Shown here piece after piece: positions 7,550 to 33,492 of a DNA stretch of 51,300 bases; within the stretch, counting starts at the first letter, position 1, and every line of letters begins with the position of its first letter. The notes beneath the pieces were generated by a model. It made no database searches and was not told the DNA's origin. It saw only the letters and a program-made list of their open reading frames with translations. Position numbers and translations under genes: made by a program. Origin of the DNA: Ectothiorhodospiraceae bacterium (GTDB lineage Bacteria > Pseudomonadota > Gammaproteobacteria > XJ16 > Halofilaceae); the NCBI GenBank assembly GCA_007134775.1, contig SLKC01000053.1:1-51300 (forward strand), in the 5' to 3' direction.

Positions 7550-8221
7550 GTGGACTGGACCGCCTTTTGGCTCTCGCTCGAACTCGCGGCCTGGACCACG
7601 GCGATCCTGTTGCCGATCGGTATCGTGGTCGGGCGCTGGTTGGCGTATCACCGCTTTCGCGGACGGGGCTTTGTCGAAGCACTGGTAGCCCTGCCACTCG
7701 TGCTGCCGCCAACCGTCCTTGGCTATTATCTGCTCGTGACCTTCAGTACGGACCAACCGGTGGGCGCATTCTGGCAGTCCCTGACCGGCAGCGGACTCAA
7801 TTTCAGTTTCCCCGGTATCGTCATCGCGTCCGTGATCTTCAATATCCCGTTTGCGATCCAGCCGGTGCAGCGCGCCTTCGAGACAGTACCGATGCACCTG
7901 CGCGAGGCGGCCTGGTGCTCGGGGCTTTCGCCCTGGCGGACCTTCCGCCGGGTGGAACTGCCGCTGGTCTGGCCTGGCGTCGTCTCCGCCTTTGTGCTGA
8001 CCTTCGTCCACACGATCGGCGAATTCGGGGTCGTGCTCATGGTGGGCGGGGCGATCGATGGCGAGACGCGAACGGTTGCCATCGCCATCTATGACCGGGT
8101 GCAGGCGTTCGATGAGGAGGCGGCGGGGGCGATGAGCCTGCTGCTGCTGGTCACGTCCTTCGTCGCTATCGCGTTGGTCTACGCCCTGGCCGGCAAGCGG
8201 AGATCGATCGGTGTCCGCTGA
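7550..8221 (+). CDS. modB: Molybdate ABC transporter permease
   Basis: This 223-residue inner-membrane permease has about five hydrophobic helices. It carries the EAA-type coupling loop REAAWCSGLSPWRTFRRVEL, which contacts the ModC ATPase. The sequence LPLVLPPTVLGYYLL is characteristic of ModB. The GTG start at 7550 has only a distant GAGG upstream. Its 3' end overlaps modC by 11 bp, so the two are translationally coupled. Confidence 0.93.
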   Translation: MDWTAFWLSLELAAWTTAILLPIGIVVGRWLAYHRFRGRGFVEALVALPLVLPPTVLGYYLLVTFSTDQPVGAFWQSLTGSGLNFSFPGIVIASVIFNIPFAIQPVQRAFETVPMHLREAAWCSGLSPWRTFRRVELPLVWPGVVSAFVLTFVHTIGEFGVVLMVGGAIDGETRTVAIAIYDRVQAFDEEAAGAMSLLLLVTSFVAIALVYALAGKRRSIGVR

Positions 8222-9305
8222 ACTCGCCGTACGTCTGCAGGCGACCGACCCGATCCCGCTGGCGGTCGACTTTGGCGTCTCCCGGTGGGAGATGCTCGCG
8301 CTGGTGGGCCCTTCGGGCAGCGGCAAGACGACGGTGTTGCGCGCGATCGCGGGCCTGCACCGTCCGCGGCAGGGCGAGATCGACTGTGGCAGTGATTGCT
8401 GGCTGGACACGGCCCGGGGGATCCACTGGCGACCCCAGATGCGGCGTGTCGGCATGGTGTTCCAGGATTATGCGCTTTTCCCGCATCTCACGGCGCAGGA
8501 GAATCTCCAGATCGCGATGGGTGATGGTGGCGGCGTGCACAGTGGTGATCGCGCCCGCGATTTGCTCGCCCGGGTGCGGTTGAAGGGGCTCGAGGAGCGT
8601 TACCCGGAGCAGCTCTCCGGTGGCCAGCAGCAGCGGGTCGCGGTCGCGCGGGCGCTGGCGCGCGATCCGCGAGTCCTGCTGCTCGACGAACCCTTCTCCG
8701 CAGTCGACATGATGACGCGGGCGCGGCTGCAGCGTGAGTTGGCACTGTTGCGGCAGGAGATCGACATCCCCATCGTGCTGGTCACACACGACCTGCAGGA
8801 AGCGCAGACAATCGCGGACCGGATCTGCGTACTGCACAATGGTCGCAGCCTGCAGACTGGCGCCCCGGCCGAGGTATTTGCTCGCCCCTGCTCGGCCCAT
8901 GTGGCGCGGTTGCTTGGTCTGCATAATGTATTTGCCGGCTCCATCGTCCGGCGCGATGGCACCCCCCGCCTGCAGTGGCATGGCCGTGAGCTTGAGGTCG
9001 CCGAGGTCGCCGATCTCCCCGAAGCGACACCCGTGGATTGGTACATCCCGGATGCCGATATCCTGCTCCATCGCCGGGGTCGCCCGTCGCGCGGCGAGCG
9101 CGAGAACCCCGTGGAGGGCGTCGTCGAGGAGTGCGTGCGTCTGGGTTCGCAATCGTCGGTGGTCCTGCGAAGTCGCGAGGGTGGCGATCGGATCCGCTTC
9201 GAGGTATCGACCCACGCGGCGCGCCGCAACGGGATCGAGCCGGGGGTAACCGCGCGGGTGTCGCTGCTCGCGCGGGCCATCCATGTCATGCCGCGGGCCA
9301 CTTGA
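8211..9305 (+). CDS. modC: Molybdate ABC transporter ATPase
   Basis: This 364-residue ATPase energises molybdate import. Walker A GPSGSGKT is at 33-40, the signature is LSGGQQQRVAVARAL, Walker B is VLLLDEPFSAVD, and the H-loop is VLVTHDLQEA. The C-terminal 75 residues form a TOBE/Mop-like domain, which in ModC binds molybdate for feedback. GTG 8211 lies inside the end of modB. The unit converges with cydC, whose stop is 54 bp away. Confidence 0.94.
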   Translation: MSAELAVRLQATDPIPLAVDFGVSRWEMLALVGPSGSGKTTVLRAIAGLHRPRQGEIDCGSDCWLDTARGIHWRPQMRRVGMVFQDYALFPHLTAQENLQIAMGDGGGVHSGDRARDLLARVRLKGLEERYPEQLSGGQQQRVAVARALARDPRVLLLDEPFSAVDMMTRARLQRELALLRQEIDIPIVLVTHDLQEAQTIADRICVLHNGRSLQTGAPAEVFARPCSAHVARLLGLHNVFAGSIVRRDGTPRLQWHGRELEVAEVADLPEATPVDWYIPDADILLHRRGRPSRGERENPVEGVVEECVRLGSQSSVVLRSREGGDRIRFEVSTHAARRNGIEPGVTARVSLLARAIHVMPRAT

Positions 9306-25674: not shown

Positions 25675-26643
25675 CTACGGTTGAATCTCGATACGCTCCG
25701 CTTCGATCCGGCGGTCCTCGAGTAGTGTGCCACGGACGCGCACGCGGCGGTTGTCATCGAGGTCGTTGTGATCGCCACCGACGAATTCGGCGTCATCGAA
25801 CTCGATGACGGCGCCGCGCAGACGGGCCTCGCCCATGACACCCGGGACGGTAAGTAGGCCCTCCAGCACAACGGTATCGCCGGGCTCCCCGCCGATCCGG
25901 ACAATGCGCTCCAGGGCCTGGGCATCGAAGTGACCGGGCTGGCCGGCGCGCTCCTGGCCGGTGATCCGGACGAAATCGTTCTCGGCGAGGGCGTCGTCGA
26001 CCTCGTCGCTGGGGACCTCCCCAGCGTAGTCGACGGTCAGGCTACCGATGCGGAAGCGGCCCTCGCCCGTCGCGCCGCGCTGGCGCACGGGGCCGGTGCG
26101 CAGGCCGGGGCCGGGCGGCGCCTCCTCGATGCGCCGCGCGATCAGTTCGCCGTCACTGCCGTGGAAGGCGCTGACGGCAACCCGGTCACCCGGCGACAGC
26201 GATTCTCCGTCAACCGCGACCACGGTGCGGTCATCGATGGTGATCTCTTCGCCAAAGATGCGCAGCGTTTGGGTGTCGCCGCGGTCATCGAGCGGGCCCT
26301 GCACCGGCCCGCGGATCGCTGTGTCGCGCTCGACGGTCAGCGCGGTCATGCGGTCGAAATCGACCTCGACGCGCACGACATGACCCTCGCGGATGTCGTC
26401 CATCGTAGCCGAATCATCGCCATCGACGATGACCTCGGCATCTTCGGTCGACAGTGTCTGTTCGTTGATCTGGATCGAGGCGCGCTCGGTGACCACGCCG
26501 GCCGTAATCCCGGTGCCGCCCGTACCGCCGTCGGCGATACCGTCGCCACCGCCGCAGCCGGTGGCGACGGTGATGACCAGCAGCGCGGCGAGCCAGGGTT
26601 TCGACTCGGGCCGTTGTGGGCGGCGGTTACGTAATCCGGTCAT
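25675..26643 (-). CDS. DUF5666-type acidic lipoprotein
   Basis: The 322-residue protein begins with a lipoprotein signal (AALLVITVATGC, Cys about 30) and a Gly-rich linker. It then has repeated beta-rich modules of 55-70 residues with the pattern V-x-G-x-V...(D/E)GD-x-V-x-V (for example DGESLSPGDRVAVSAF and LRGAVIEFDDAEF), as in DUF5666 proteins. It is expected to face the periplasm from a membrane. It is 4-bp coupled to the DUF6502 gene, and this pair likely acts together. Function is unknown. Confidence 0.82.
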   Translation of the reverse strand: MTGLRNRRPQRPESKPWLAALLVITVATGCGGGDGIADGGTGGTGITAGVVTERASIQINEQTLSTEDAEVIVDGDDSATMDDIREGHVVRVEVDFDRMTALTVERDTAIRGPVQGPLDDRGDTQTLRIFGEEITIDDRTVVAVDGESLSPGDRVAVSAFHGSDGELIARRIEEAPPGPGLRTGPVRQRGATGEGRFRIGSLTVDYAGEVPSDEVDDALAENDFVRITGQERAGQPGHFDAQALERIVRIGGEPGDTVVLEGLLTVPGVMGEARLRGAVIEFDDAEFVGGDHNDLDDNRRVRVRGTLLEDRRIEAERIEIQP

Positions 26644-27488
26644 GGCGGGTCTCCGTGATGGTTCGATTCGGCTTGCGTGGTGTTCTCGCGGTCCTCAATC
26701 AGGTGGGCGGCGAGGCCCAGGCGCACGCGACCGCTGCCGCCGACACCGGGGCTGCGGTCGCGGTCGCGTTGGGCCAGCCACGCGTCGAGCTCTTCGATCA
26801 GGTCCTGCGCGCGCTCGGCGGCGAGCTTGCGGAAGGCCGGTGCGAACTCTTCGGGAATATTGTCGTAGACCACCTTGCGCTGGAACCGGGGGGCGGACCC
26901 CGTGTCCTGCAGATTGTGGTCGATGGTGGTGACGAGGTCACGTACATCGGTGCCGAGCAGATAGAGCTTCTGGGCGGTGTCGTGCACCGGTACGTAGGCG
27001 CGTCGGAGCAGGCGCACTCGGTCGTCGTGCGTGCGCTCAACCGCGCCCACACGGATGAGTTCGTCGAGGATGGCGCGCGGTGGAATATCGCCCCCATGGC
27101 GTGCAACCAGTGTGGCGAAGCCCGTGTCGCCCTCCACGGGCAGCTCGCCCGGGCTGCCGGCCTCATCGTGGAAATCGGTATCACGCACCCATCCGGCGAT
27201 GACGCGCGCCGCTCGGTTGTAACGGGTGGCTGCCTGTGCATCCGTGGGAAACGGATGCTCGCGGCGCTGACCGACCTCCTTGCGGCTCAGGCCGGTGATC
27301 GTGGCGATTCGCGATGTTGTCTGCTTGCGTCCGGGCAGATGGAATTCGTCGGCAGCGACCTGCACGTAGACGGTTCGCGCAATGTCGCTGAATGTCCGGT
27401 AGGCGATGCCGTGGCGCAACAGGATGCGGATCAGCGGCCGCAGCAAGTGGGCCAGGGCGCGTTCGAGTGGGCTCGGGTCACCGGTCAA
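26640..27488 (-). CDS. DUF6502-like protein
   Basis: The 282-residue cytoplasmic protein has a possible helix-turn-helix near the N-terminus (KQTTSRIATITGLSRKEVGQ), a middle region ILDELIRVGAVERTHDDRVRLLRRAYVP that resembles a winged helix, and a polar C-terminal tail. It matches my memory of DUF6502 proteins that travel with DUF5666 lipoproteins. It may be a DNA-binding regulator of the pair. The TTG start at 27488 has a full AGGAGG 11 nt upstream. A terminator-like hairpin precedes it at 27511-27549. Confidence 0.78.
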   Translation of the reverse strand: MTGDPSPLERALAHLLRPLIRILLRHGIAYRTFSDIARTVYVQVAADEFHLPGRKQTTSRIATITGLSRKEVGQRREHPFPTDAQAATRYNRAARVIAGWVRDTDFHDEAGSPGELPVEGDTGFATLVARHGGDIPPRAILDELIRVGAVERTHDDRVRLLRRAYVPVHDTAQKLYLLGTDVRDLVTTIDHNLQDTGSAPRFQRKVVYDNIPEEFAPAFRKLAAERAQDLIEELDAWLAQRDRDRSPGVGGSGRVRLGLAAHLIEDRENTTQAESNHHGDPP

Positions 27489-27510
27489 CTCGGGCTCGGC
27501 CTCCTGCGGG

Positions 27511-27549
27511 GAAAAGAAGAAGAGGGGCGGGCACAGAGTCCCGCCCCTC
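27511..27549 (-). terminator. Intrinsic terminator between the 38-codon gene and DUF6502 gene
   Basis: On the minus strand GAGGGGCGGG pairs perfectly with CCCGCCCCTC (10 bp, 8-nt loop), followed directly by a pyrimidine run CTTCTTCTTTTC. This is the best intrinsic terminator in the window. It sits 15 bp after the small-gene stop and 23 bp before the DUF6502 TTG, so it either ends the small transcript or acts as an attenuator for the pair. Confidence 0.8.
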
Positions 27550-27563
27550 GATTCCGATGGGGC

Positions 27564-27680
27564 CTAGGGGAAAGGCGCATGCGAGCATCGGCCAGAACGC
27601 ATTACGCCGGCCAGTTTGCCGGTGGCTTGACGGCCAACGTAGTGGCCGAAGTCGTGCATCTTGGCTGGGTGTGCTCGCAT
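27564..27680 (-). CDS. Small protein or leader peptide, 38 residues
   Basis: I do not recognise this product. The 38-codon frame begins MRAHPAKMHDFGHYVGRQ and ends CSHAPFP; it has several His, one Cys and net positive charge, and no membrane helix. Support for reality is contextual: GGGAG sits 6 nt before the ATG, a strong sigma70-like promoter lies about 110 bp upstream (27800-27829), and an intrinsic terminator follows 15 bp after the stop. It may be an independent small protein or a leader peptide controlling the DUF6502-DUF5666 pair. Confidence 0.6.
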   Translation of the reverse strand: MRAHPAKMHDFGHYVGRQATGKLAGVMRSGRCSHAPFP

Positions 27681-27794
27681 GTGCTCTCCCGCTTCCCTGT
27701 CCCGGTGGAATCACAAAGGGGGCAGCCTGCTTCCTGCGGCGGATTCGCCCCTGATCACCTCCGGATGTCCACACGGCCTGATGACCGTGCTTGT

Positions 27795-27810
27795 TGGGAA
27801 TTATCACCCA
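27795..27810. promoter_or_regulatory. Imperfect operator copy (TGGGAAT-type)
   Basis: TGGGAATTATCACCCA is a degenerate copy of the perfect palindrome 40 bp away. It overlaps the -10 of the minus-strand promoter. The 40-bp separation, about four helical turns, would place both sites on the same DNA face. Confidence 0.45.
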
Positions 27811-27829
27811 TTTATTCTTCGAGAGTCAA
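27800..27829 (-). promoter_or_regulatory. Sigma70 promoter for the small gene
   Basis: On the minus strand TTGACT (27824-27829) and GATAAT (27800-27805) are separated by 18 bp. Each matches 5 of 6 consensus bases, the best promoter match in the window. The -10 overlaps the operator-like site at 27795, so repression by a locally encoded regulator is plausible. Confidence 0.65.
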
Positions 27830-27834
27830 CGATA

Positions 27835-27850
27835 TGGGAATAAATTCCCA
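27835..27850. promoter_or_regulatory. Perfect palindromic operator candidate
   Basis: TGGGAATAAATTCCCA has perfect 7-bp arms around AA. It lies between the minus-strand promoter and the XRE-cupin regulator. The half-site TAAATTCCC recurs exactly at the glxB promoter -10 (28673-28681). I infer it is the binding site of the adjacent regulator. Confidence 0.5.
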
Positions 27851-27928
27851 ATTATCGTTCGGGGTGGCGATCAAGCCGGGGTGCGCTCGCTTCTTGTGGC
27901 TTTGCGTGGATGCGCACAGTATCCTGAG

Positions 27929-27950
27929 AAAACCATTCAAGACCGGTTTT
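27929..27950. promoter_or_regulatory. Inverted repeat before the regulator start
   Basis: AAAACC and GGTTTT, separated by 10 bp, lie just upstream of the likely TTG start of the XRE-cupin gene. It may be a second operator or an autoregulatory site; arm length is short, so chance cannot be excluded. Confidence 0.3.
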
Positions 27951-27956
27951 CAGACC

Positions 27957-28619
27957 TTGGCAGAACAGCGCACACCCTCCACCGATCTTCCAGGTAAGAG
28001 CGATGGCCCGGGCAGTGGCGGGGCTACCCCCCGGGATCTGGAGAAGTACATCGGTGCCGAGCTGCGGCGCTACCGCCTGCGCTCTAACCTGACCGTTGCG
28101 TCCCTGGCTCAGCGCGCGGGCCTCTCCCAGGGCATGCTGTCGAAGATCGAGAACGGGCATACGTCACCTTCGTTGACCACGCTCGGTGCGTTGGCGAGTG
28201 CGCTTGGGATACCACTGTCGGTCCTTTTCGCCCCGCTCGATACCAGCCGGGATGTCTCGTTCGTGCCCGCCGGGCAGGGGCTGGAAATCGATCGCCGCGG
28301 TACCCGCGCCGGCCATGTCTACGAGCTGCTGGGCCATGGCGTGCGCGGCCCGGTGGGCGTCGAGCCCTATCTGATTACGCTCTCTACCGAATCGGAGAGC
28401 TATCCCGATTTCCAGCACGAGGGCGTCGAATTCATCCACATGCTCTCGGGCCGTCTCGTCTACCGCCATGGGGAGCAGCGTTTCACCATGGGACCCGGGG
28501 ATTCCCTGTTCTTCGACGCCATTGCACCCCATGGGCCGGCGGAGCTGCTGGAGCTGCCGGCGCGCTATCTATCGATCATCTGCTACGAACGGCTCCCGGC
28601 CGGGGCCGAGCCTGAATAG
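27957..28619 (+). CDS. XRE-cupin transcriptional regulator
   Basis: The protein (about 220 residues) has an XRE helix-turn-helix (ELRRYRLRSNLTVASLAQRAGLSQGMLSKIENG) followed by a cupin sensor domain (YPDFQHEGVEFIHMLSGRLVYRHGEQRF, GDSLFFDAIAPHGP). Regulators of this type (PuuR-like) sense small amines or carboxylates. It precedes glxBCD-glnT in the same direction, so it probably controls them. The start is uncertain: TTG 27957 is used, but ATG 27834 is in frame and none has an SD. The open frame far upstream is spurious. Confidence 0.8.
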   Translation: MAEQRTPSTDLPGKSDGPGSGGATPRDLEKYIGAELRRYRLRSNLTVASLAQRAGLSQGMLSKIENGHTSPSLTTLGALASALGIPLSVLFAPLDTSRDVSFVPAGQGLEIDRRGTRAGHVYELLGHGVRGPVGVEPYLITLSTESESYPDFQHEGVEFIHMLSGRLVYRHGEQRFTMGPGDSLFFDAIAPHGPAELLELPARYLSIICYERLPAGAEPE

Positions 28620-28648
28620 GTGACCCTGTGGTGTGGGCCCGGGATGCC

Positions 28649-28678
28649 TTGACACGGAGGATTAGGGCGCCGTAAATT
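28649..28678 (+). promoter_or_regulatory. Sigma70-type promoter for glxB
   Basis: A perfect TTGACA (28649-28654) and TAAATT (28673-28678) are spaced 18 bp, placing the start near 28685, about 65 nt before glxB. The -10 is inside TAAATTCCCC, a copy of the operator half-site at 27841-27849. A facing GGGGAAATT lies at 28704-28712. Confidence 0.6.
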
Positions 28679-28751
28679 CCCCGCAGTGAAGATAGTTTCT
28701 TGAGGGGAAATTGGTCGCGCCTCCCCGGCGACCATTACGGAGCTGGCAGGC

Positions 28752-29651
28752 ATGTGCGGAATCGTAGGCCTCTATCTGAAGAATCCCGCTCTGCATGACC
28801 GTCTCGGCGAGTTCTTCGCTCCGATGCTGATCGAGATGACCGAACGCGGCCCCGACAGCGCCGGTATTGCGATCTATCGTGAAGAGCCCGAAGTCGCGGC
28901 CAAGGTCTGCGCCTACTCGGCCGATACCCGCATCGACTGGTCCGCCATCGCCCGTGCGATGGTCGATGACCTGGGCATCGAGGTGGCGGTGGAGCGCAAC
29001 GCCAGCCATGCGGTTTTCCGCAGTCCTTCGCCCGATGCTGACCTGCGCGGTTGGTTCGAGCGCGAGCGCCCCGACCTGCGCATCATGAGTTCGGGCGCCG
29101 CGCTCGAGATCTACAAGGAGGTGGGATTGCCCGCCACCGTTTTGGAGCGGTTTGGCATTGCCGGCATGCAGGGTTCGCACGCCATCGGTCATACCCGCAT
29201 GGCAACGGAGAGCGCGGTGACCACCGAGGGGGCCCACCCGTTCAATACGGGCGACGATCTCTGCCTGGTGCACAACGGCTCGCTGTCCAACCACAATCGC
29301 CTGCGCGACTGGCTGCGGCGCCATGCCGGGCTGACGTTCCAGACCGAGAACGATACCGAGGTGGCCGCGGCCTATCTGACTTGGCGCCTACGCGAGGGCG
29401 ATTCGATGGAGACGGCGCTTGAGGGGGCGCTGCGCGATCTCGACGGCTTCTACACCTTCGCCATCGGCACGCGCTCGGGCTTTTCCGTACTGCGCGATCC
29501 CATCGCCTGCAAGCACGCGATCATGGCGGAGACCGAGGATTGGGTCGGCATGGCGACCGAGTACCGGGCGCTGGCGCGCTTGCCCGGTGTCGAGAATGCA
29601 CGGATCTGGGAGCCGAAACCGGCCACCGTCTATACCTGGGGGTCGACCTGA
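28752..29651 (+). CDS. glxB: Class II glutamine amidotransferase subunit (GlxB/MgsA-like)
   Basis: The 299-residue protein starts MCGIVGLYLKN, so Cys2 becomes the N-terminal nucleophile of an Ntn-type glutaminase. Further family motifs are HTRMATESAVTTEGAHPF and LVHNGSLSNHNRLRDWL. It supplies ammonia, or the gamma-glutamyl-side reaction, for a split glutamate-synthase-like complex with GlxC and GlxD. In methylotrophs the equivalent MgsA is the N-methylglutamate synthase alpha subunit. It starts the glx run; the stop is 2 bp before glxC. Confidence 0.9.
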   Translation: MCGIVGLYLKNPALHDRLGEFFAPMLIEMTERGPDSAGIAIYREEPEVAAKVCAYSADTRIDWSAIARAMVDDLGIEVAVERNASHAVFRSPSPDADLRGWFERERPDLRIMSSGAALEIYKEVGLPATVLERFGIAGMQGSHAIGHTRMATESAVTTEGAHPFNTGDDLCLVHNGSLSNHNRLRDWLRRHAGLTFQTENDTEVAAAYLTWRLREGDSMETALEGALRDLDGFYTFAIGTRSGFSVLRDPIACKHAIMAETEDWVGMATEYRALARLPGVENARIWEPKPATVYTWGST

Positions 29652-29653
29652 CA

Positions 29654-30337
29654 ATGGCAACACTCGATCTGGCAGAGCTTGACATCCGCACGGTGAACCG
29701 GCGTCTGCAGGGGCGCACGGGTGATCCGAACGAGAGTGCATTCGAGGTGTTACACCCAATGGGCCGGCACACGCTGGCCGCGGGCATCAACCGCCCCATC
29801 GACGTGACCATCCGCGGTCATGTCGGCTATTACTGCGCCGGCATGAATCAGCAGGCGCGCGTGACGGTTGAGGGGAACGCCGGCGTTGGCGTCGCCGAGA
29901 ACATCATGTCGGGTGAGGTCCGGGTGCAGGGTTACGCGAGTCAGTCAGCCGGCGCGACGGGGCATGGGGGCCTGGTCGTGATCGAGGGCGACGCGAGTGC
30001 GCGTTGCGGCATTTCGATCAAGGGCGTCGACATCGTGGTTGGGGGCTCGGTGGGTGCCATGTCGGGGTTCATGGCGCAGTTCGGCACCCTGGTCGTGCTG
30101 GGCGATGCGGGGGCGGATCTGGGCGACTCCATCTACGAGGCGCGCCTGTATGTGCGGGGCAAGGTCGAGAGCCTGGGCGCGGACTGCATTGAAAAGGAGA
30201 TGCGCGATGAGCATCGCCAGCAGCTTGCTGAGCTGCTCGAGCGCGCCGGGATGGATGCGCGCCCCGAAGAGTTCCGGCGCTACGGCTCGGCGCGCCAGCT
30301 CTACAACTTCAAGGTCGGCAACATCGGTTACTACTGA
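29654..30337 (+). CDS. glxC: Glutamate-synthase GXGXG-domain subunit (GlxC/MgsB-like)
   Basis: The 227-residue protein is a stand-alone copy of the C-terminal beta-helix of glutamate synthase alpha. Repeated G-x2-G-x3-G units are visible (IRGHVGYYCAGMNQQARVTVEGNAG, QSAGATGHGGLVVIEGDAS). It packs against the GlxB and GlxD subunits rather than catalysing on its own. ATG 29654 is used. It is 2 bp from glxB and 11 bp from glxD. Confidence 0.9.
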   Translation: MATLDLAELDIRTVNRRLQGRTGDPNESAFEVLHPMGRHTLAAGINRPIDVTIRGHVGYYCAGMNQQARVTVEGNAGVGVAENIMSGEVRVQGYASQSAGATGHGGLVVIEGDASARCGISIKGVDIVVGGSVGAMSGFMAQFGTLVVLGDAGADLGDSIYEARLYVRGKVESLGADCIEKEMRDEHRQQLAELLERAGMDARPEEFRRYGSARQLYNFKVGNIGYY

Positions 30338-30348
30338 GGACGGTCGTG

Positions 30349-31656
30349 ATGGACGAACGCAAGGTGCAGGAATCGGCGACATTCCCGCCCAAGGTGATCG
30401 CCGAGATCCAGCGGGCGGCCTCGGAAGGGCTCTACTACATCCGGGGTTCGGGCGCGAAGCGCAAGGTGCCGAATTTCGATGACCTGGTATTCCTCGGGGC
30501 ATCCGTGTCGCGCTATCCGCTCGAAGGGTATCGGGAGAAGTGCGACACCGACGTCACCATCGGGACCCGCTTCGCGAAGAAACCGATCCATCTGAAGATT
30601 CCGATCACGATTGCGGGCATGAGCTTCGGTGCGCTCGGGGCCAACGCGAAGGAGGCGCTGGGGCGTGCCGCGACGGCCATGGGCACCAGTACGACCACAG
30701 GCGATGGCGGCATGACCGAGGAAGAGCGGGTGTCGTCACAGACGCTCGTCTACCAGTACCTGCCGTCGCGCTACGGCATGGAGCCGGATCAGTTGCGCAA
30801 GGCCGACGCCATCGAGGTCGTGGTGGGCCAGGGGGCCAAGCCGGGTGGTGGTGGCATGTTGCTCGGGCTGAAGATCACCCGGCGGGTGGCCCGCATGCGC
30901 AGCCTGCCCCGCGGCATCGACCAGCGCAGTGCCTGCCGCCATCCCGACTGGACCGGCCCGGACGATCTGGAGATCAAGATCCAGGAATTGCGCGAGATCA
31001 CGGACTGGGAGAAGCCGATCTACGTCAAGGTCGGTGCCACCCGTACGCGCTACGACACCATGCTGGCGGTCAAGGCCGGCGCCGATGCGATCGTCCTCGA
31101 CGGGATGCAGGGGGGGACGGCCGCCACCCAGACCTGTTTCATCGAGGATGTGGGTATTCCGACGTTGCCGGCCGTGCGCCAGGCCGTCGAGGCGCTCAAG
31201 GAGCTGGGCATGCACCGTAAGGTCCAGCTCATCGTCTCGGGCGGTATCCGTACCGGTAGCGATGTGGCTAAGGCGCTGGCGATGGGCGCAGATGCGGTGT
31301 CCATCGGCATGGGGGCGCTGATGGCGCTCAACTGCAATGCGCCGATCTACGAGGAAGATTATCACGCGCTGGGAACGAAGCCGGGCTGTTGCCACCACTG
31401 CCACACGGGGCGCTGCCCTGTCGGCATCACGACCCAGGACCCGGAGCTCGAGAGGCGCCTGGATCCCGAGCGCGCCGCCCAGCGGCTGCAGAACTATCTG
31501 ACCACGTTGACGCTGGAGGCCCAGACGCTGGCGCGCGCGTGCGGCAAGTCGCATGTGCACAATCTGGAGCCCGAGGACATGGTGGCGCTGACGATGGAGG
31601 CGGCCGCGATGGCGCGGGTGCCGTTGGCGGGTACGGACTGGATTCCCGGCACGTGA
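30349..31656 (+). CDS. glxD: FMN/[3Fe-4S] glutamate-synthase-like subunit (GlxD/MgsC-like)
   Basis: The 435-residue protein is the FMN-binding synthase domain of a split glutamate synthase. ITIAGMSFGALGANAKEAL begins the barrel, GDGGMTEEERVS and KPGGGGMLLG follow, and DGMQGGTAATQTCFIEDVG carries phosphate-binding residues. The cysteines of GCCHHCHTGRCPVGI bind a [3Fe-4S] cluster. It joins ammonia or methylamine to 2-oxoglutarate to give glutamate or N-methylglutamate. ATG 30349 directly follows an in-frame GTG 30346; GAGGA is upstream. Confidence 0.9.
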   Translation: MDERKVQESATFPPKVIAEIQRAASEGLYYIRGSGAKRKVPNFDDLVFLGASVSRYPLEGYREKCDTDVTIGTRFAKKPIHLKIPITIAGMSFGALGANAKEALGRAATAMGTSTTTGDGGMTEEERVSSQTLVYQYLPSRYGMEPDQLRKADAIEVVVGQGAKPGGGGMLLGLKITRRVARMRSLPRGIDQRSACRHPDWTGPDDLEIKIQELREITDWEKPIYVKVGATRTRYDTMLAVKAGADAIVLDGMQGGTAATQTCFIEDVGIPTLPAVRQAVEALKELGMHRKVQLIVSGGIRTGSDVAKALAMGADAVSIGMGALMALNCNAPIYEEDYHALGTKPGCCHHCHTGRCPVGITTQDPELERRLDPERAAQRLQNYLTTLTLEAQTLARACGKSHVHNLEPEDMVALTMEAAAMARVPLAGTDWIPGT

Positions 31657-31800
31657 TGCCGATTGCGCGAGGCGAAGTGCGATTGCGATTGCGATCGCGC
31701 AGGCGCCATGAGGCCTATCAAGGGTCGGCACGCGGGGCCACATACAGCGGCCACGGTGGCGCATGACAATGAGACCTCAAACAGGCGGGAGGGTCGATCG

Positions 31801-33171
31801 ATGACCGAACAACCGAAGACGAAGGAGGATGTACTGCGCATCGTCAAGGACCGCGGTATCGAGTTTGTTTACTTCCAGTATGTGGAGATGTACGGCAAGC
31901 CGTGCGCGAAGCTCGTGCCCGCATTGGCGCTGGCCGAATTGTGGGATGAGGGTGCCGGTGCTGCCGGCTTCGCCGCGGGCGAGATTGGGCAGGGACCGCA
32001 TGATCCCGATCTCGTTGCCTATCCCGATCCGCAGACCTTCATTCAGCTCCCCTGGCAACCCGAGGTCGGGCTGATCACCTGCGATGTCTATGTCGAGGAC
32101 GAACCCTGGCCCTACGACCCGCGTTTGATCCTGCGCAATGTGCTCGAACAGGCGCGTCAGCGGGGGTATATCTTCAATATCGGGTTCGAGCCGGAGTTCC
32201 AGCTCCTTGAGGCCGACCCCGAGAACATCGCGCGCCCGCGCCGGGCGGACCCGTACGACGTCCTGCAGCGCCCCTGCTATGACGTCAAGGGCCTGACACG
32301 CCAGTACAACTATATCCGCGACCTGTCGCGCGCCCTCAATGAACTCGGCTGGTCGAACTACGCGCTCGATCACGAGGACGCCAACGGCCAGTTCGAGGGC
32401 AACGTCAAGTTCAGCGATGCCCTGACGACCGCCGATCGCTGCGTGGTGTACAAGTACATGGCCGACACGATCGCGCGGCAGCACGGCATGACGGCGACGT
32501 TCATGCCGAAGCCCTTCGTCGATCAGACCGGTAATGGCCTGCATCTGACCTTCAGTCTCTGGGACGAGAACAACCAGACCAACCTCTTCGAGAGCAGCGA
32601 TGACGCCCGCGGCCTTGGCCTGTCGAAGCTGGCCTATCAGTTCATCGGTGGCTTGATCGATCATGCGCAGGCCTATATCGGGCTGACGGCGCCGACCGTG
32701 AATTCCTACAAACGTCTGCGCCGCGGTACCCACGATGTGCGCACCTGGGTGCCGGTGAACGTCACCTACGGCGGCAACAATCGGACCCAGATGCTGCGTG
32801 TGGGCGGGCCCGGGCGCGTGGAGGACCGAACACCCGACGGCTCGTGCAACCCCTATCTCGCAATGGCCGCGATCCTCGCCAGCGGGCTCGACGGTATCGA
32901 GCGCGATCTCGACCCCGGCGATCCGAACCACGACAACCTGTATGAAGTGCCCGAGGCGGAACTCAAAGAGCGCGGTATCGGCTTTCTGCCGGGGAATCTA
33001 TTCGAAGCGATCAACAATCTCGAGCAGGACTCGGTGCTGCGCGCGGCGCTGGGCCGGGCTCGTGGCGAGGACTATCTCGACTACTACTGCCGCGTGAAGC
33101 GTGCCGAGTGGGACAGCTACCATCGGCAGGTGTCCGAGTGGGAGCTGCAGCATCAGCTCCACTTCCCGTAA
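31801..33171 (+). CDS. glnT: Type III glutamine synthetase-like / gamma-glutamylmethylamide synthetase
   Basis: This 456-residue protein is a glutamine-synthetase-fold ligase. Motifs include FEPEFQLLE (metal/glutamate site), NGLHLTFSLWD, and NSYKRLRRGTHDVRTWVPVNVTYGGNNRTQMLR (ATP/glutamate loop). It is GlnT/GmaS-like rather than GlnA. Family members join glutamate to ammonia or methylamine with ATP. Location after glxBCD fits the gamma-glutamylmethylamide to N-methylglutamate route or a related amine pathway. ATG 31801 has GGGAGGG at good spacing. The 144-bp gap from glxD holds a short GCGATT repeat but no gene. Confidence 0.88.
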   Translation: MTEQPKTKEDVLRIVKDRGIEFVYFQYVEMYGKPCAKLVPALALAELWDEGAGAAGFAAGEIGQGPHDPDLVAYPDPQTFIQLPWQPEVGLITCDVYVEDEPWPYDPRLILRNVLEQARQRGYIFNIGFEPEFQLLEADPENIARPRRADPYDVLQRPCYDVKGLTRQYNYIRDLSRALNELGWSNYALDHEDANGQFEGNVKFSDALTTADRCVVYKYMADTIARQHGMTATFMPKPFVDQTGNGLHLTFSLWDENNQTNLFESSDDARGLGLSKLAYQFIGGLIDHAQAYIGLTAPTVNSYKRLRRGTHDVRTWVPVNVTYGGNNRTQMLRVGGPGRVEDRTPDGSCNPYLAMAAILASGLDGIERDLDPGDPNHDNLYEVPEAELKERGIGFLPGNLFEAINNLEQDSVLRAALGRARGEDYLDYYCRVKRAEWDSYHRQVSEWELQHQLHFP

Positions 33172-33390: not shown

Positions 33391-33492
33391 CCGTGTCCGT
33401 CCCCTCGCGACGAAACGCCGTGAACCCCGTCAGGCCCGGAAGGGAGCAGCGGCAGCGGCGATCTTCGGGTGCCGGGGTGTGGCGGGCACGGG
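33391..33492 (+). ncRNA. ffs: 4.5S signal recognition particle RNA
   Basis: The conserved SRP tip GTCAGGCCCGGAAGGGAGCA is at 33429-33448, with the Ffh-binding asymmetric loop and GGAA tetraloop. The outer ends CCGTGTCCG (33391) and CGGGCACGGG (to 33492) pair to close a rod of about 100 nt. With Ffh it targets inner-membrane proteins. It lies 80 bp upstream of dnaX. End positions come from pairing and may be off by a few bases. Confidence 0.92.

Follow-up and report, generated by a model that had tools for sequence, protein, structure and literature searches.

What is the purpose of the promoter, short open reading frame and terminator-like hairpin that follow one another on the minus strand at 27511-27850 in the 51,300-nucleotide stretch of an Ectothiorhodospiraceae genome analysed here (the window)? 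A sequence-only reading had taken them for a complete small transcription unit encoding a 38-residue protein. The elements are present in the order described (promoter, GGGAG, frame, hairpin), and the coordinates were correct. Both the promoter, with its two near-consensus hexamers, and the terminator-like hairpin, with its pyrimidine tract, were found above chance; they have comparative support and are probably real. The unit is not self-contained, being the 5′ end of an operon of a DUF6502 gene and a DUF5666 gene. We consider it likely that the region controls this operon, with a promoter, an operator, a folded leader and an attenuator-like hairpin; the operon would be self-repressed, and the 38-codon frame is most likely no gene. 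The features of the locus are:

25675-26643, minus strand: DUF5666 gene, second cistron (PF18914, E 6.6e-19)
26640-27488, minus strand: DUF6502 gene with TTG start, predicted DNA-binding autoregulator (PF20112, E 3.7e-85)
27512-27549, minus strand: intrinsic-terminator-like hairpin with pyrimidine tail (pairing probability ~1.0; same-slot hairpins in relatives)
27550-27793, minus strand: structured leader RNA that folds into three hairpins, its start predicted near 27793 (z −4.4 versus shuffles)
27564-27680, minus strand: 38-codon frame within the third leader hairpin, probably no gene
27794-27811: degenerate operator O2, TGGGTGATAATTCCCA on the minus strand, with the −10 box inside (one mismatch to the operator)
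27800-27829, minus strand: sigma-70 type promoter TTGACT-18-GATAAT (−35/operator/−10 layout as in relatives)
27834-27851: operator O1, TTGGGAATTTATTCCCAT on the minus strand, palindrome TGGGA-N6-TCCCA (sole near-exact site in the genome)
27951-33171, plus strand: XRE-cupin regulator, then genes for class-II amidotransferase, GXGXG and glutamate-synthase domains and for a type III glutamine synthetase
33394-33491, plus strand: small SRP RNA of the bacterial type, with a dnaX-like gene immediately downstream

Direct reading of the minus strand placed the −35 box TTGACT at 27829-27824 and, after an 18-nt spacer, the −10 box GATAAT at 27805-27800, the two hexamers matching 10 of 12 consensus positions. 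This was the sole minus-strand promoter-like match in 2.5 kb, where shuffled sequences gave an expectation of 0.3 over both strands; no second minus-strand site was found across 26500-29000. The AGGAGG Shine-Dalgarno sequence of the DUF6502 gene (27505-27500) begins 16 nt past the terminator stem, the TTG start lies 11 nt beyond, and the start of the DUF5666 gene overlaps the DUF6502 gene by 4 nt. The region is probably the start of an operon encoding a DUF6502 DNA-binding regulator, which likely controls its own promoter.

The 38-codon frame (27680-27564) has an ATG preceded by GGGAG and ends in TAG. When the leader was shuffled, 27% of the sequences contained an ATG frame of at least 38 codons and 6% contained one preceded by a Shine-Dalgarno motif, so that the frame is not clearly above chance. 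Its codon score of −0.32 fell within the shuffled range (−0.52 ± 0.21) and below all 37-codon windows of twelve real genes (0.41 ± 0.16), a comparison with limited power at 38 codons, and its third-position GC was 0.65 compared with 0.77-0.87 in the twelve genes. The sequence-only reading had named conservation in relatives as one check on this gene, and none was seen: searches of two same-genus genomes and of 369 genomes from the class gave the 38 residues no relative above chance level, and no Pfam or NCBIfam model matched them. The best match (L030; E 0.0017 for one genome of the 369) was dismissed as just a reading frame that overlaps a long gene. Both the Shine-Dalgarno sequence and the start codon are predicted to lie within a long hairpin stem that would cost ~25 kcal/mol to open, although ribosomes might load on the frame before the 3′ arm is made. 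The "several His and one Cys" remarked on earlier are indeed there (4 His and 1 Cys), but this content, alone, is no evidence. With no conserved relative, no codon signature and a sequestered start, the proposal that the unit exists for a small, perhaps metal-binding protein is not supported; the frame looks like a chance frame, and a real small protein from it is quite unlikely.

A more specific form of the small-gene explanation has the 38-residue protein as a first cistron that replaced the DUF5666 gene of the sister species and precedes the usual hairpin between cistrons. The same slot is occupied by a gene in the sister species, the frame has a spaced GGGAG before its ATG and a stop just ahead of the hairpin, and the hairpin over its start could be beaten by co-transcriptional ribosome loading. 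Set against this are the lack of relatives in the same genus and in the class sample, a codon score under every real-gene window and the energy needed to expose the start and Shine-Dalgarno sequence, and we rate this arrangement as quite improbable. The leader contained no trace of the DUF5666 gene that the sister species have there. Reading the region as an operon leader removes a likely false small gene.

The hairpin after the frame has a perfect, GC-rich 10-bp stem (27549-27522), an 8-nt loop and the tail TTCTTCTTTT. In the two sister species and at four other loci (L099, L150, L158 and L008), a long hairpin separates the preceding gene from DUF6502, and the hairpin of the window occupies the same slot as the relatives' hairpin between DUF5666 and DUF6502; it therefore probably attenuates the operon. 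Thermodynamic prediction gave a terminator pairing probability of ~1.0 and no strong competing antiterminator, as a switching attenuator would have, and the hairpin may therefore be a plain partial terminator. Partial, constitutive attenuation of DUF6502 expression is the simplest reading. The locus resembles leader-peptide attenuators in having a short frame and an intrinsic-terminator-like hairpin before the regulated gene, but differs from them in that the frame carries no coding signal. Amino-acid-sensing attenuation was rejected, since the frame has no regulatory codon run and the leader no antiterminator.

The leader was strongly folded relative to shuffled sequences (z −4.4, and −3.7 on repeat). 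Across 198 windows of the contig the background was −0.56 on average (sd 1.29), and the place of the leader was among the five most extreme. Of 14 leaders from other DUF6502 genes whose operator is distant, 13 folded unremarkably. The region had no Rfam match at the gathering score, a loose threshold giving sub-threshold matches only, and searches of plasmids, phages, 56 relatives and 369 class genomes returned no DNA relatives of the leader beyond short chance-level pieces. We regard as doubtful the idea that the leader represents a novel, species-restricted RNA regulator (or harbours a novel small protein) that responds to a signal and governs read-through into the DUF6502 autoregulator; if true, it would give the operon two layers of feedback. 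Alternatively, promoter and terminator might delimit a free-standing ~280-nt small RNA under DUF6502 control, with the DUF6502 gene itself expressed mainly from another promoter. The strong fold and a good terminator, forming with a probability of ~1.0, would suit such an RNA, but it has no relative in any collection and no Rfam match, the minus strand offers the DUF6502 gene no other promoter-like site in 26500-29000, and relatives use this promoter layout directly for DUF6502. These observations make a free-standing RNA unlikely. On the plus strand, 27501-27738 gave the strongest folding signal of the 198 contig windows (z −5.9).

Two copies of a palindrome, O1 and O2, flank and overlap the promoter. 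O2 repeats O1 at a spacing of 40, TTGACT stands 13 nt ahead of O2, and GATAAT sits within it. When up to one mismatch was allowed, the palindrome pattern matched this genome at O1 and nowhere else, and each of the two same-genus genomes once, at the DUF6502 locus; a reversed control pattern had zero sites. A loose, sub-threshold Rfam match to a CRISPR repeat at 27793-27852 proved to be the O1/O2 pair. Could the palindromes belong instead to the divergent XRE-cupin regulator, which would then control both directions? That regulator is followed by a glutamate-synthase-like operon that includes a type III glutamine synthetase. The XRE gene does adjoin the palindromes, but in both sister species its orthologue has another location, where no near-exact palindrome adjoins it, and across phyla the palindrome tracks DUF6502, which makes this assignment very improbable. 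In sister species the orthologue adjoins an ammonium-transporter-like gene instead. O1 also faces the XRE gene of the window, and an action on that gene is possible.

The operator recurred upstream of DUF6502 in other genomes. Across 40 loci, the 420 nt preceding DUF6502 contained 17 exact copies of TGGGA-N5-7-TCCCA (shuffles, 0.045). In a second collection, searched with an alignment, 57 of 80 loci had an exact operator within 450 nt upstream (shuffles, 0.1), and 68 of 80 had one with up to one mismatch in the same span (shuffles, 2.3); the two sets overlap partly, some genomes being common to both. A single-protein query of genome contigs gave 0 DUF6502 matches and the alignment query 440; one out-of-frame row (L067) was removed from the first alignment. 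The loci included records named Nitrospira, Desulfobacterales, Gammaproteobacteria and Burkholderiaceae; viral contigs gave zero DUF6502 matches. At 37 of the 57 loci, TTGAC preceded the palindrome by 10-14 nt (mostly 11), so that a TATAAT-like −10 box falls inside the palindrome. The window has this same layout, a −35 box followed by a palindrome containing the −10 box. The operator lies 20-50 nt from DUF6502 in most relatives, and the ~300-nt leader of the window is atypical. Many relatives have an ATG only a few bases past the palindrome, and DUF6502 transcripts there may therefore be leaderless. Loci L082-L161 and L039-L068 have the family-wide arrangement TTGACA-N11-TGGGA-N6-TCCCA, in which the palindrome holds the −10 box and is followed within a few bases by the start codon, a layout that suggests leaderless, self-regulated DUF6502 mRNAs in several phyla.

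The DUF6502 protein (282 residues) belongs to its family with 285.5 bits for PF20112, against a curated cut-off of 27. A single-sequence structure model was unusable (pLDDT 40), and an AlphaFold model was built from 34 aligned sequences (mean pLDDT 79.5; 86-96 over residues 51-80). Its top match was to DNA-bound chains of HetR, a cyanobacterial DNA-binding regulator (Foldseek E 9.7e-4, weak; VIA-align Z 7.7, rmsd 10.5 over 197 residues), and residues 28-82 and 87-162 matched helix-turn-helix and winged-helix domains from proteins that include sigma factors and TetR regulators. Because all structural matches had Z <8, values that can arise from common arrangements, they support DNA binding and not family membership. 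HetR also binds palindromic DNA, as proposed here for DUF6502, but the two share ~16% identity with weak scores, and their operators and gene settings differ. Sequence search found no relatives of DUF6502 in the PDB, and no mention of DUF6502, PF20112 or four representative operator sequences was found in the literature searched.

A conserved operator thus lies over the regulator's own promoter, as expected of an autoregulated operon. Given this operator, its single genomic site and the helix-turn-helix and winged-helix folds of the model, DUF6502 is probably a repressor of its own operon. The conserved operator and its overlap with the promoter, the place of the hairpin, the folding and the missing coding signals are observed here, and from them we infer binding, repression (rather than activation) and attenuation. 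RNA polymerase would initiate at 27829-27800 and produce transcripts with a ~240-nt, strongly folded leader, many of which would stop at the hairpin (27549-27522). Read-through would yield a small amount of DUF6502 and DUF5666, and DUF6502, encoded downstream on the same transcript, would bind O1 and O2, cover the −10 box and repress its own operon. Autorepressed operons with an operator over the −10 box include those of many TetR-family regulators. The likeness consists of a helix-turn-helix type regulator and a palindromic operator overlapping the promoter of its own operon, but DUF6502 is a separate Pfam family, and a long folded leader and a terminator-like hairpin intervene. A family without known function would thereby gain a testable role, that of a self-regulator binding DNA at a specific 16-bp operator.

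In Pseudomonadota, Nitrospirota and sulfate-reducing lineages this 16-bp operator lies beside the DUF6502 gene; it also heads DUF5666 genes. DUF5666 genes adjoin DUF6502 in the sister species, where an operator copy heads either a DUF5666-DUF6502-DUF5666 operon or an EAL gene just ahead of the operon. At L069, from one sister species, a near-exact operator (7991-8008) precedes an EAL-domain gene (8056-8916) that has been inserted in front of the DUF5666-DUF6502 genes of the operon, a hint of some connection with cyclic-di-GMP turnover. Where an operator copy lies far upstream of DUF6502, the gene it heads is often lipoprotein-like. Three loci (L089, L098 and L107) have a second exact operator ~2.2 kb downstream of the DUF6502 start, followed after ~185 nt by a frame of 304-321 residues (L098 and L107) or a cut frame of 259 residues (L089), and these frames are a possible further target.
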